Assembly (NCBI GenBank): GCA_037043015.1
Contig: CM073325.1
Coordinates: 19,323,001 to 19,387,000 of the forward strand
DNA: 64,000 nt
Source of the DNA: Bryum argenteum
Lineage: Eukaryota > Streptophyta > Bryopsida > Bryales > Bryaceae
Direction of reading: 5' to 3'
Shown here: positions 10,216 through 20,511 of the stretch, piece after piece
How positions within the stretch are numbered: position 1 is the stretch's first letter
How the letters are laid out: each line of letters opens with the position of its first letter
The notes under the pieces: generated by a model
The model's database searches: none
What the model saw: the letters and a program-made list of their open reading frames with translations, nothing else
Told to the model about the DNA's origin: nothing
Position numbers and translations under genes: made by a program

Positions 10216-10246
10216 CTCTCTCTCTCTCTCTCTCTCTCTCTCTCTC
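10216..10246 (+). repeat. (TC)n tract, left edge of the retroelement block
   Basis: About 15 TC units. It marks a sharp change from AT-rich host DNA on the left to a GC-richer block on the right and is the left-hand counterpart of the long TC tract at 19709-20000. Confidence 0.9.
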
Positions 10247-11698
10247 GGAAAATGGCCTATTCTATACGAATTTGACCATAAATTAGGTGAAAAACGTTCA
10301 TCTCTCATACCTCTGACAACGCTCCACACACAGACCCAACGTGGGGGTGACGCTGCGCCGTGCTAGTCTGTGGGTACCCGCTGTGCCCTTCGGTGTGCTA
10401 CCAATTTCCACAAACGAACATTTTCATAGCTCTAACACTTGAGCTTGATCCCGCTTGGCCACTGGACTCACAGATAAGGCTTAGTCCGATGTCATGGGCT
10501 CTGGATACTCCTCACTGGGATATGCATGCTGATACTGTCGATACCTGGGACTGTTGATACCTGGGACCCGGACCAGTACCCGGCTCTACTTACCCTCAGT
10601 GCCATGATGTTCCGTTACACTGCGCCGCCCATAGTCTGCAGTCTGCACGGGCCACGAAACCCACCGTCTGATCATGATTTTGCCGCATGTACCATAGCAG
10701 CGGATGGCCTTCCAATCTGGGTTTACACCTCCCGCAAGAAGGCTTTTCTGCTCTCTCGACGGTCGAGTTCAGCACTTTTTGGTTTCGCAAGTCTTGCCGA
10801 TCCTGCAGATTCTTGACTGCACCATACGCGCGTGACTCTCGTGACTTCAGCATGTCTGAACTACAGTCGTCTCAGGTGTCTTGATGGACCCGTTCTCACC
10901 CTCGGGAGTTTTGACTAACCTGCTCGTTCTTGCTTTCTGTCAGGCAGGATGCTCAGCTTTTTGTTGAGATACATGCGTGACGGATCTGTCATGATTTTTG
11001 CAGCTTCGTTTTAACTTGCGACTCGGATAACAACGTGGGATCTTTGCTGTAGACACCTCGCACACGCATCTAAACTGACTTCCTGTTTGTTTGAATGCAT
11101 GGGTGCAGGTGAGGCGGATCCCCTCAGCTTAAAGCTTTGCTCATCACTCGTGACTGTTCCTTCTACCATTCAACTCGTTTTATTTCAGCAATCTTTGATT
11201 GTATACCATAGCCTTAGGGTCCAGGATCTGTCACATTCTCTGCTATAAACCTGGTCCTGTTTCTCCAGTATGATAGAGTCACAGACGCTGTACACTCTTA
11301 GCCGTCACGCTTGCTACTAGCACGTCCACTTTACGGTGGCCTTACCATGATTACAGAAAGCCTTGACTGTCTTTATTCTGCCGTTCATTGTACCCGCCCT
11401 CCCTCCCGAACGGGAATGGGCTTTGCTCTACCTGTAAAGCTATTCGGTCCTGTATGCCGAATTTGCCTTTGACTGTCTGGCTTCGGGCGTGCTTTTGACG
11501 TTAGTCTCAAACCCATGAATTACCTTCTCTGGTCCACCTTCTACCGTCTGAACTGTATGCATATTGCGGTAGCGACGAACCTGGTATGACGTCATATCTC
11601 ACGGGTTTTGTGTCGGATTGATACACTTTGTCGTGATGTTAAATGCAAACTTCTCGAATTGAAAGAAATTGCCCAGACTTGGGGTGACAAGACAAGTA
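10247..11698 (+). repeat. Terminal direct repeat copy 0 (diverged, 1.45 kb)
   Basis: Bounded by (TC)n on both sides. Its 3' part is clearly homologous to the repeats at 11787-13888 and 18238-19708: a block at 10999-11160 (from ACTTGCGACTCGGATAAC) matches 13163-13330, and the last 60 bases share the CCCAGACTTGGGGTGAC motif just before the TC tract. The first 700 bases are much less alike. Length agrees with the other two copies once the insertion in copy A is removed. It carries no ORF that I believe in. It sits head-to-tail upstream of copy A, an arrangement known for Penelope-like elements. Confidence 0.75.
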
Positions 11699-11786
11699 TC
11701 TCTCTCTCTCTCTCTCTCTCTCTCTCTCTCTCTCTCTCTCTCTCTCTCTCTCTCTCTCTCTCTCTCTCTCTCTCTCTCTCTCTCTC
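11699..11786 (+). repeat. (TC)n tract between repeat copies 0 and A
   Basis: About 44 TC units separate the two tandem repeats. It gives rise to spurious Ser-Leu or Arg-Glu repeat ORFs on the two strands. Confidence 0.95.
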
Positions 11787-12509
11787 GTAAATGAGCTTAT
11801 TTTGTCTAAATAAGCAATGATGCGATGGAACACACGAAATTCCTTCCGTTACACTCCACATGAGACACAACACAATCTATAAACCTGAGCAAGCCTGATG
11901 CACGTTACCATCAGAAGTATACCCTACCAGGAATGAGTACATACGGTAACTCACACCGGGGCTGCGCAGGACACACTTTGGTTGGCTCCATATTGCACTT
12001 GTGGAAGCCCGACCTAGGCAGCCAGCTGAACCGCAAGCACCCTGCCGTCACGATGACCGGTTCTCACTTCTAGACACCCTGCTCGCTCGATAACCGGTTT
12101 TCATAGTAGAGGCCAGCTCGTTTATTATCGCCGGCAAAGACTGCATGACGGGGAGGGTGATTATGTTACGAACACCACCTTGTCCACAACCCGTCCGGAC
12201 GCTTGGCGTTAACGCACCATCATGTGCCCGCCCTCAGCAGCCATGCTATCGACTGCCTAACAGAAAGTGCAGTGACACCAGATCAAGAATCCTGTTCTTT
12301 TTCCTGTGACGGCTGGCGCGAGTTCTTGGACGCTACGTTGAAACCGAGTGCTACTGGCTCTTCGTGGACTGGAGCTTCGTCACGGCAGTGCCGATCTCCA
12401 CCATGTCTCAGGTGCTGCAACGGCCGCATTCATGTTTTGAGAGCAGATTCGGACCTCATCGTCCTTGTCTTTGATCATGCAGGTTGCTCAATTAGGGCCG
12501 GAATACTTG

Positions 12510-13130
12510 GGCAATGGTAAGCTTGGGGTATCACTTTTTGGACACACTAATTAGGTTATTATTATTGAAAGCCTCCAAAGTTTGTCTAATTTAGTCATTT
12601 TAATCAAGTAAAAAGACCCTAAAATAGAAAATAAAATATCATGCACCTCACTGAAATCAAAGTATATATGCCTATAGATTTTCTTTTAGATTTTTTATTT
12701 TTTTTGGATCCATTCATAGATGAGGGAAAAAGTGTTGAATTTGGGGATTTGCAGGCATTATAGTGCACAATGAATTAATTTTTTTATTATTAAATAAATT
12801 ATTTTGTATTCTATACAAGAAGATGTAGGTCATATTCAAAAATTATATTAAAATGAAAATGGTTGATATTCCATTTGCTTGATTCTATGGATTTTAGGTT
12901 ATTGGGACATGACTTACTTTTTCAACTAAAAAATCAAATAAAATTACTTCAAAATATATTTTTTAATTTTTAATTTTTTTTCTTGATACATTATAAGTAT
13001 AGACAATGTAAACCACATCTAATGAAGTCTTATTGTATTACAGTTTAAAAATAGATATGTTTGTCACACCAGCATAGAGTACAATTGTTCATGGGACAAC
13101 CTTTTTGGGTACCCCAACCAGACCATCACT
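12510..13130. mobile_element. 621-bp AT-rich MITE inside repeat copy A
   Basis: Comparing copies A and B shows a clean extra 621 bases flanked by a duplicated TACTTG (12504-12509 and 13131-13136). The ends form imperfect inverted repeats: the left GGCAATGGTAAGCTTGGGGT pairs with the inverse of the right end over a core around ATGGT and TTGGGGTA. There is no ORF. The insert is much more AT-rich than the repeat around it. The family is uncertain; the six-base target duplication does not settle hAT versus MULE-like. Confidence 0.8.
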
Positions 13131-18200: not shown

Positions 18201-18210
18201 GGCGGCGGGA

Positions 18211-18237
18211 CTCTCTCTCTCTCTCTCTCTCTCTCTC
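18211..18237 (+). repeat. (TC)n tract between element interior and 3' repeat
   Basis: About 13 TC units exactly at the junction with repeat copy B. Confidence 0.95.
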
Positions 18238-19708
18238 GTAAATGAGCTTATTTTGTCTAAATAAGCAATGATGCGATGGAACACACGAAATTCCTTCCGT
18301 TACACTCCACATGAGACACAACACAATCTATAAACCTGAGCAAGCCTGATGCACGTTACCATCAGAAGTATACCCTACCAGGAATGAGTACATACGGTAA
18401 CTCACACCCGGGGCCTGCAGGGACACCACTGGTTGGCTCCATATTGCACTTGTGGAAGCCCGACCTGGGCAGCCAGCTGAACCGCAAGCACCCTGCCGTC
18501 ACGATGACCGGTTCTCACTTCTAGACACCCTGCTCGCTCGATAAACGGTTTTTTCATAGTAGAGGCCGCCCGCTCGTTTATTATCGCCCGCAAAGACTGC
18601 ATCGGGGAGGGTGATTATGTTACGAACACCACCTTGTCCACAACCCGTCCGGACGCTTGGCGTTAACGCACCATCATGTGCCCGCCCTCAGCAGCCATGC
18701 TATCGACTGCCTAACAGAAAGTGCAGTGACACCAGATCAAGAATCCTGTTCTTTTTCCTGTGACGGCTGGCGCGAGTTCTTGGACGCTACGTTGAAACCG
18801 AGTGCTACTGGCTCTTCGTGGACTGGAGCTTCGTCACGGCAGTGCCGATCTCCACCATGTCTCAGGTGCTGCAACGGCCGCATTCATGTTTTGAGAGCAG
18901 ATTCGGACCTCATCGTCCTTGTCTTTGATCATGCAGGTTGCTCAATTAGGGCCGGAATACTTGTCTTGGTCCGAATGTCATGAATCTTGCAGCGTTGCTT
19001 TAACTTGCGACTCGGATAACAACGTGGGGTTTTAGCTGTAGACACCTCGCACACGCATCTAAACTGACTGTCTGTTTGTTTGAATGCATGGGTGCAGGTG
19101 AGGCGGACCCCCTCAGCTTAGAGCTCCGCTCTACATTCATGACTTTTTCTTCCCCTTCATCTGTCAACTACTTGCGTGGTGTTTTTCAAATGCTGGCGGA
19201 ATACCACCATAGGGTCCAAAATTGCTTTCCTGAGGAGACTAAGCGGGTTTTTCCGTTACACTAGCGTTGTTTTGCTTTGCTGGCTTTATAAAAGCCCGTC
19301 GCTCGAATAATTAGCCCACTAAGCGATGTTTACTTCGACCTGCCTATAATGAGAAGGAGTCTTGCTGTTTCGGTACTTCACTACGAGTAGTGCACCCGCC
19401 CCCCCGCCCGGTCCATCTGGGCTGTGTGAATCCTGCTTGACTCCCGATGCCTGTTGATTAATAATCGCCGTTGAGTGATTTATTACCTGCTATACTCATG
19501 CTGGTTACGGTCTTACTATCACGGGACAACACGAGTTGCTCTCGTTATGAGATGCAAGTTATGAACGATGACCTCTGTACATGACTTCCATGTAGCTGCT
19601 GAATGATGGATGTGACGGTGAGCGTGGGGTTTACTCGAATAGATTGATAGGAATCTGTCTCGAATTGCCGGAAAGATCCCAGACTTGGGGTGACGTGTAA
19701 TGTCTGTA
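18238..19708 (+). repeat. Terminal direct repeat copy B (3' repeat, uninterrupted)
   Basis: 1471 bases, homologous end to end with copy A, starting GTAAATGAGC after TC and ending GTCTGTATCTCTCT into TC. It shows the empty site of the MITE in copy A (around 18956). Contains the TATA box TTTATAAAAG at 19285-19294. Confidence 0.85.
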
Positions 19709-20000
19709 TCTCTCTCTCTGTATCTCTCTCTCTCTCTCTCTCTCTCTCTCTCTCTCTCTCTCTCTCTCTCTCTCTCTCTCTCTCTCTCTCTCTCTCTCTC
19801 TCTCTCTCTCTCTCTCTCTCTCTCTCTCTCTCTCTCTCTCTCTCTCTCTCTCTCTCTCTCTCTCTCTCTCTCTCTCTCTCTCTCTCTCTCTCTCTCTCTC
19901 TCTCTCTCTCTCTCTCTCTCTCTCTCTCTCTCTCTCTCTCTCTCTCTCTCTCTCTCTCTCTCTCTCTCTCTCTCTCTCTCTCTCTCTCTCTCTCTCTCTC
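19709..20000 (+). repeat. Long (TC)n tract, right edge of the block
   Basis: About 145 nearly uninterrupted TC units. It separates the GC-richer retroelement from AT-rich host DNA. ORFs of pure Ser-Leu or Arg-Glu repeats across it are artefacts. Confidence 0.95.
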
Positions 20001-20511
20001 TATAAAGAAGATGTATGTGTCAAAATACATGTCAAAGCTTGCATACTAGCTTGTGATGCAACCCAAAATTCAAACATTTTTCCAAGAAGACCATTTATAC
20101 CTTGTAATTCCTCATATCGTGAGAGATTCACAATCTCAAAGTTCAAAAGAGCAATAAAAGCATATTGAAATCCACCCAAAATCATGATATGAACATTCTC
20201 ATCTATTTCCAAAATTTGCCCAAAAAATATTGGCTAGCACAAACTTTACAAATTCATTAAAAACAGTAATTCTTTTATCATGTAAGTTTTGTCAAAGAGG
20301 TACTAAGGTATGGCGATCTTGTTCAATTTATCATTTCATGATTTTTTCACATTCCTTGTTCTCCAATTTATCATTACATAGTTTTCTCACATTCATTTTA
20401 GTTTACTTTATCATTACATACATTTTTTCACATTCCTACTCATCGGTCAAAATCTAGCCGTAGTATTTGAATTTCAGCATATCTCAATGTGGAAAATCAA
20501 ACGGTTCTTAA

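Follow-up and report, generated by a model that had tools for sequence, protein, structure and literature searches.

A Penelope-like element without a recognised endonuclease domain at TC microsatellite tracts of the moss Bryum argenteum

How does a retroelement without a recognisable endonuclease enter a chromosome, and why does it lie between TC microsatellites? The question was raised by a block of DNA (10216-20001) in a stretch of 64,000 nucleotides (nt) from the moss Bryum argenteum, called the window below (CM073325.1, positions 19,323,001 to 19,387,000). The window lies at 19.3 of 22.2 Mb of contig C5, in an assembly of 258.8 Mb and 25 contigs. The block consists of two insertions in the same orientation: a diverged solo copy of a repeat, R, and a full element with the order R5-ORF1-ORF2-R3 (11787-19708), in which two copies of R enclose two open reading frames (ORFs). 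We consider it probable that this element represents an autonomous two-ORF branch of the Penelope-like elements (PLEs), near Naiad and without a GIY-YIG endonuclease, which uses GA:UC pairing for priming and probably for strand transfer. The location of its copies, mostly at TC tracts, suggests base-pairing with TC repeats as the way in which it copies itself into the genome. Window features are on the forward strand, except for one insert, to which no strand is assigned.

The ORF2 reverse transcriptase

ORF2 (15813-18044, 743 amino acids) encodes a Penelope-like reverse transcriptase (RT). The motifs on which a first-pass annotation had recognised an RT gene, DITKCYESIP, GIPMG and YIDD, were all confirmed. 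Among 7998 candidates scored, 155 homologues were found at E ≤ 1e-3; the family is common in public and environmental sequence. Only one of the 120 homologues listed carries an organism name, that of the moss Ceratodon purpureus, and it is a hypothetical protein. A CxC motif (C79, C81) is invariant in an alignment of 34 family members, and RVT_1 was found by Pfam in 33 of them. CxC is the motif that defines the Naiad/Chlamys clade.

For comparison, relatives of ORF2 were sought with a Naiad-like protein as the query, which returned a real, nameless protein family. Four of its proteins were scanned with Pfam, and an N-terminal GIY-YIG domain scored over the cut-off in three and below it in one; in the member P0182 it occupies residues 99-161. 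Because this family has GIY-YIG, CxC and RT, we infer that it is Naiad-type. The ORF2 profile matched the Naiad-type profile over 608 columns (hhalign probability 99.9, E 1e-35) and P0182 alone at E 2.8e-24, which bears out the earlier view of ORF2 as a Penelope-like RT. ORF2 residues 1-676 align to residues 314-954 of P0182, including the CxC motif. The stretch between motif A and GIPMG, where an insertion-in-fingers domain like that of the Naiad/Chlamys clade may lie, aligns with its Naiad-type counterpart. As a control, a Ty3/gypsy RT of the window gave no match to ORF2 (E 0.35); it comes from polyprotein pieces at 61082-63985 with RT and integrase-like sequence, recognised by eye. By sequence homology, ORF2 is a Penelope-type RT near Naiad. 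Since the match starts downstream of the Naiad-type GIY-YIG domain, ORF2 would correspond to a Naiad-type RT without its endonuclease.

The protein is under strong purifying selection. Between two ORF2 copies on contig C11, synonymous divergence (dS) is 1.12 and nonsynonymous divergence (dN) 0.093, a dN/dS of 0.083. Between the window ORF2 and other copies dS is saturated, and dN ranges from 0.10 to 0.48.

No family of endonuclease, RNase H, integrase, protease or recombinase, including the tyrosine recombinase that marks DIRS elements, was matched in ORF1 or ORF2; the first-pass annotation had likewise seen no endonuclease, RNase H, integrase or recombinase. Pfam likewise gave no match to GIY-YIG, RNase H or integrase in the 34 ORF2 family members, several of which are N-terminally cut, and none to GIY-YIG in 30 ORF1 members. 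In the main rival explanation, an endonuclease of a relative or of the host would nick TC tracts in trans, and the element would follow by ordinary target-primed retrotransposition with a microsatellite preference. The close kinship of ORF2 to endonuclease-bearing Naiad-type proteins favours it, as does the bias to microsatellite insertion that Craig et al. (2021) are said to have found in the Naiad/Chlamys clade. The genome also holds three GIY-YIG matches (L080-L082). However, none of them adjoins ORF2, one looks like SLX1 and the other two are small genes, and no GIY-YIG match was found in the 34 ORF2 members scanned, several of them N-terminally cut. We regard it as unlikely. The two small GIY-YIG genes, L081 (C1:17354118) and L082 (C4:20906904), are similar to each other, and one lies about 20 kb from an R cluster.

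ORF1 (14051-15724) was called from a GTG codon as 557 amino acids with an RGG-rich tail, and it belongs to a conserved family, with 45 homologues among the candidates scored. It had been described earlier as an intact Gag-like gene. The reading frame is indeed present, but it is not fully intact: homologues begin further upstream (by 28 residues in P0121), and the counterpart of this upstream part in the window was found by eye in a different frame. The Gag-likeness found no homology support. No domain was recognised in ORF1 by Pfam or NCBIfam, no Pfam family matched more than one of the 30 members, with E-values at chance level, and the Naiad-type profile gave no match (E 0.87). The RGG-rich tail suggests a possible RNA-binding function. 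Six ORF1 and six ORF2 homologues lie on contigs of identical sizes (4299, 4437, 5119, 5703, 5854 and 6439), so the pairing of the two ORFs is probably conserved. No relatives of the element were detected in scans of viral contigs and genome contigs collections, and searches of solved structures returned chance matches or none.

TC tracts at the borders of R copies

Within the window, runs of (TC)6+ or (GA)6+ occur only in four tracts, all in the block: (CT)n at its left edge (10216-10246), (TC)44 between solo R and R5 (11699-11786), an internal (CT)n where R3 begins (18211-18237) and (TC)n at the right edge (19709-20001). The solo R (10247-11698) is 48% identical to R5 and R3, and it retains the conserved RNA domain and the 3' hairpin described below. 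The block had been described as lying inside one TC microsatellite. The tracts were found as claimed, but they delimit two insertions, and TC also occurs inside the element, both before R3 and as TCTCTCT at the junction of R5 and leader. The reading of 10216-20001 as a single element was rejected, since its left part is an insertion of its own, the diverged solo R.

The genome was searched for further copies, with counts that are lower bounds: 28 match rows for ORF2 (several per copy), 26 for ORF1, and 45 each for R3 and solo R. The exact pattern of the RNA core occurs 28 times, and its reversed control not at all. The expectation that genomic copies would be bounded by TC was borne out at both ends. 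A sense-strand TC tract of at least 10 nt lies 600-840 nt upstream of the core, where R starts, in 32 of the 37 R copies read; a GA tract was found there in none of the 37, and elsewhere in the window, at random positions, TC tracts have a frequency of 0.0022 (0.22%). Motif search gave 26 R 3' ends, comprising six R/leader junctions (five by the script rule, one on C8 by eye) and 20 external ends. Nineteen of the external ends run into TC-type sequence (17 into TC of at least 8 nt, one into CCCTCT repeats and one into degenerate TC). R5 starts at a TC tract, of 12-287 nt, in eight of the nine R5 copies read. For this count 16 ORF1 starts were matched; the seven without an R core read upstream are outside the nine.

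Neighbouring copies of R were compared where both were in the identity matrix. In all four such pairs the neighbours belong to different subfamilies (48% identity in the window, 45% on C10, 48% on C1 and 54% on C11), and in all four they are joined in like orientation through a TC-type tract. A fifth pair, on C4, behaves likewise (47%, with R5 taken in place of R3). Under duplication or recombination the neighbours should be alike, and under random insertion there should be none, which points to the TC tracts of earlier copies as insertion sites. On this comparison of neighbours, TC tracts act as insertion sites. The same pairs bear on another explanation, in which the TC ends come with the element and its insertion is random, so that the TC at its borders says nothing about targets. 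TC does belong to the element, given the internal CT tract before R3 and the TCTCTCT at the R5/leader junction. However, diverged neighbours joined by TC are not what random insertion into 259 Mb would yield, and we give this explanation hardly any credence. At C1:20768850-20783321, seven R cores and one partial element are stacked in like orientation, with TC tracts at most joints.

All copies read lie inside contigs, whose ends need not be chromosome ends. Of the 28 exact cores, the two closest to a contig end, both on C10, are still about 0.76 Mb away from it; for ORF2 matches the smallest distance is about 0.36 Mb, to the end of C4. By location, the element is not a telomeric endonuclease-less PLE.

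Homogenised repeats and structured RNA

The long direct repeats reported by the first-pass annotation were confirmed as R5 (11787-13888) and R3 (18238-19708). In the window element they are 99.18% identical over 1455 aligned bases, gaps excluded, with a 627-bp insert and small indels left aside. The identities in four elements are 99.18, 98.82, 99.19 (first 1247 bases) and 96.88% (part of R), whereas R of the two side-by-side C11 elements is 54% identical. With 97-99% identity within an element and 54% between neighbours, the repeats must be made alike in each round. Independent copying of R5 and R3 from the two ends of one RNA was rejected, since it predicts the divergence of separate lineages. 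R5 and R3 are best read as the pseudo-long terminal repeats (pseudo-LTRs) of a PLE, with R5 as a truncated tandem copy. Excerpts of PMC8969392 describe both pseudo-LTRs from tandem 5'-truncated copies and 5' truncation as known PLE features. One clear case of plain 5' truncation was found here, a 58-bp copy of the R end with a TC end and 98% identity (C4:15964922-15964979).

R5 ends at the leader with TATCTCTCT, a junction kept in six copies. The R/leader junction is nearly constant, reading TATCTCTCTGCCCTC..ATCCAC in most copies, with only 3-4 TC units. This fits reverse transcription that starts inside the RNA near the junction of pseudo-LTR and ORF, as excerpts of PMC11167929 describe for a PLE of Anolis.

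A true LTR retrotransposon, primed by transfer RNA, with LTRs that happen to begin and end with TC and with integrase and RNase H lost, would share several of these traits. R5 and R3 of any one element are homogenised, R copies without adjoining ORFs are common, and a G-rich stretch precedes R3. However, the RT matches Naiad-type PLEs and not the gypsy RT of the window, TG...CA ends are absent, and a 5'-truncated copy exists. Nor is there a conserved primer-binding site: TGG follows R5 in one of six junctions, that of the window copy, and TGC in the other five. We judge an LTR origin very improbable. The first-pass annotation had held that the combination of features fits no standard plant retroelement class it knew. 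This view found no support, since LTR-like repeats and 5' truncation are known in PLEs, a bias to microsatellites is known in Naiad/Chlamys, and ORF2 is homologous over nearly its full length to permuted PLEs.

R contains a conserved structured RNA domain of about 166 nt (13150-13315 in R5 and 18977-19142 in R3, with the same sequence). In 30 of 34 distinct copies, a structure of 39 pairs has 95.3% of its cells paired; four rows (L006, L029 and two in L014), whose 3' part is absent or could not be aligned, were dropped. Sixteen pairs have changed on both sides, giving 82 double-change cells against 24.4 ± 4.5 after shuffling. None of 500 shuffles reached 82, and structures slid along the alignment gave 5-20. 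RNAalifold gave -72.9 on all 34 rows, against a mean of -40.1 (standard deviation 4.0) in 60 column shuffles, and the consensus on 30 rows has -21.7 kcal/mol and 39 pairs. No Rfam family matched the domain. A hammerhead ribozyme in R was rejected: the stretch 10200-20010 gave four Rfam matches at E up to 10, none of them to a hammerhead family. R3 closes with a terminal hairpin, CCCAGACTTGGGG (19678-19690). By hand count over 26 R 3' ends, its fourth pair is A-T in 17, T-A in five and a T-T mismatch in four.

A second structure, a hairpin, lies between ORF2 and the internal CT tract (18124-18198). Across seven copies three of its pairs are compensated, and its loop can pair with the following sequence, forming a probable H-type pseudoknot. 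This second stem is strong in four of the seven copies (p at most 0.001). It is followed by a G-rich motif, CCAGGGGCTGGCGGCGGGA (18192-18210), a possible barrier to RT. The motif, CCAGGGGyTGGyGGCGGG or a close variant, is present in seven copies and stands directly before CT in six. Both the covarying 166-nt domain in R and the hairpin or probable pseudoknot with the G-rich tract before the internal CT tract are apparently new.

The leader (13889-14050) contains a possible hairpin with a GGTGA loop (13903-13921), which is only suggestive, as 40 of 500 shuffles scored equally high. In most copies a GGTGAA-like motif of the leader precedes a CAG; in several copies the motif reads GGTGAA or GGCGAG, with GCAG or ACAG after it. 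The leader is possibly a retained (spliced) intron; introns kept in DNA copies have been reported for PLEs.

Several further observations concern the repeats. R5 is interrupted by an AT-rich insert of 627 bp (about 12504-13130), which shows as a gap when R5 is aligned with R3. Both of its edges carry a TACTTG repeat, and its inverted ends are similar in part. It looks like a miniature inverted-repeat transposable element that landed after the insertion of the element. The differences between R5 and R3 in the window, C11 and C4 pairs are rich in small indels relative to substitutions, mostly of 1-3 nt and often compensating; RT slippage or assembly may be the cause. At the R3/TC border (19700-19730), two copies of the tail motif TGTATCTCTC follow each other, as if the template had been copied twice. 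A copy at C4:17975553-17982479 (L010, L011) resembles the window element in R5 (98%), the 3' end of ORF2 (91 and 88% of amino acids) and R3 (93%). Its ORF1 and the remaining ORF2 are only 42-69% alike and contain several stops. It looks like a chimera, perhaps formed by template switching. Elsewhere in the window, ORFs resembling piggyBac-type and Harbinger-type transposase genes were recognised by eye (50794-51645 and 56677-58863).

A mechanism of GA:UC pairing and its place among PLEs

The mechanism we favour is priming from TC-ended DNA, which the first-pass annotation had named as one of two alternatives. A (GA)n 3' end, released where a TC tract is broken or nicked, would pair with a UC stretch, either at the R/leader junction or at the RNA 3' end, and prime. 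The RT would then copy R3 and meet, upstream of the internal (CU)n, a barrier that the pseudoknot and the G-rich tract would form. A stop at this barrier would define the start of R and leave a solo R flanked by TC. On read-through, the RT would copy ORF2, ORF1 and the leader, use GA:UC pairing to jump onto a second RNA at its R end, and copy R again up to its CU tract, which would yield R5. Finally, the (GA)n end of the complementary DNA would anneal to the TC side of the target. A single dinucleotide pairing would thus serve priming, template jump and second-end capture, and this is the most economical account.

A further reading was considered, in which a telomerase-like transposon makes its own landing sites. 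According to the literature, PLE RTs are kin to telomerase RT; a TERT gene of the host lies at C6:16533896. Much as telomerase adds telomere repeats, the RT would repeatedly copy a short (CU)n template onto GA ends while the pseudoknot and the 166-nt RNA domain hold it, and would lengthen TC tracts, into which later copies would insert. The outer tracts measure 88 and 279 nt in the window element and 287 and 39 nt in the first C11 element, while the internal tracts before R3 have 27, 17 and 22 nt (window element and two C11 elements). Genome-wide, with the element's own tracts included, R(TC)14 occurs 11 times and (CT)14R 43 times. These lengths and counts, together with the doubled tail motif, favour such a reading, but microsatellite slippage explains all of them equally well. 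We consider it doubtful.

Several points weigh against the pairing mechanism and the PLE placement. The template RNA, its ends and the strand jump are unobserved, so that the steps are inferred, whereas anatomy and junctions were read directly. TC would have been present beforehand at host sites, but no empty target site was seen. Not every border agrees: five of the 37 R copies have no 5' TC tract at 600-840 nt (one of them has it at 1363 nt, owing to the insert), the R5 at C1:11.47 Mb has none at its start, one external R 3' end (C4:15949217) lacks TC, and the R3 at C4:17981345 breaks off at R position 1147, with TC directly there. The second stem of the pseudoknot is weak in three of seven copies (p 0.03-0.09), two of which pair best otherwise. 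As for ORF2, its best NCBIfam match is a group II intron RT (E 3.5e-4, below the cut-off), a general RT similarity, and its placement was compared only with Naiad-type proteins and one gypsy RT. The N-terminal cut in several of the 34 rows means that the absence of an endonuclease there says little, and an endonuclease could act in trans.

By its RT and pseudo-LTRs, the family would be classed as a PLE; a PLE-type RT, pseudo-LTRs and 5' truncation were all found. With the Naiad/Chlamys clade it shares an alignable RT, the region N-terminal to the RT, CxC, pseudo-LTRs and the microsatellite bias, and no hammerhead was found in the element. It differs in lacking the N-terminal GIY-YIG, in its separate conserved ORF1, in TC of one fixed orientation, and in the structured RNA and pseudoknot, for which no report from that clade is known to us. 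It lacks the endonuclease that defines the clade and is therefore not a strict member. LTR retrotransposons also have solo repeats and long direct repeats homogenised within each element; unlike them, the element has a PLE-type RT, and no primer-binding site, integrase or RNase H was found.

Coprina is an endonuclease-less PLE. Others occur in Selaginella and conifers and, like Athena and the terminons, have no endonuclease, according to excerpts of PMC9033089 and PMC12477314. In the terminons, the same excerpts describe RNA repeats complementary to the DNA end, C-rich there as they would be UC here. The endonuclease-less PLEs described in these excerpts are telomeric or of unstated place, whereas the element here lies inside contigs at TC tracts. 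Poseidon of Anolis (PAc) has a similar tandem structure of pseudo-LTRs, and its internal RT start near the pseudo-LTR/ORF junction serves well as a model of the R/leader junction; unlike the element, PAc has a C-terminal GIY-YIG, a hammerhead ribozyme and AT-rich DNA cleavage (PMC11167929, in excerpt). Titles and abstract openings of the bryophyte and microsatellite literature, with partial coverage, contained no report of this family; as evidence of novelty this is weak.

Endonuclease-less PLEs are known from telomeres, where free 3' ends are available, and the family described here appears to do likewise inside chromosomes, at TC tracts. This makes a long-standing question testable, the mobilisation of telomerase-like RTs without an endonuclease and the origin of pseudo-LTRs, with the conserved RNA domain, the pseudoknot and the R/leader junction as defined biochemical substrates.

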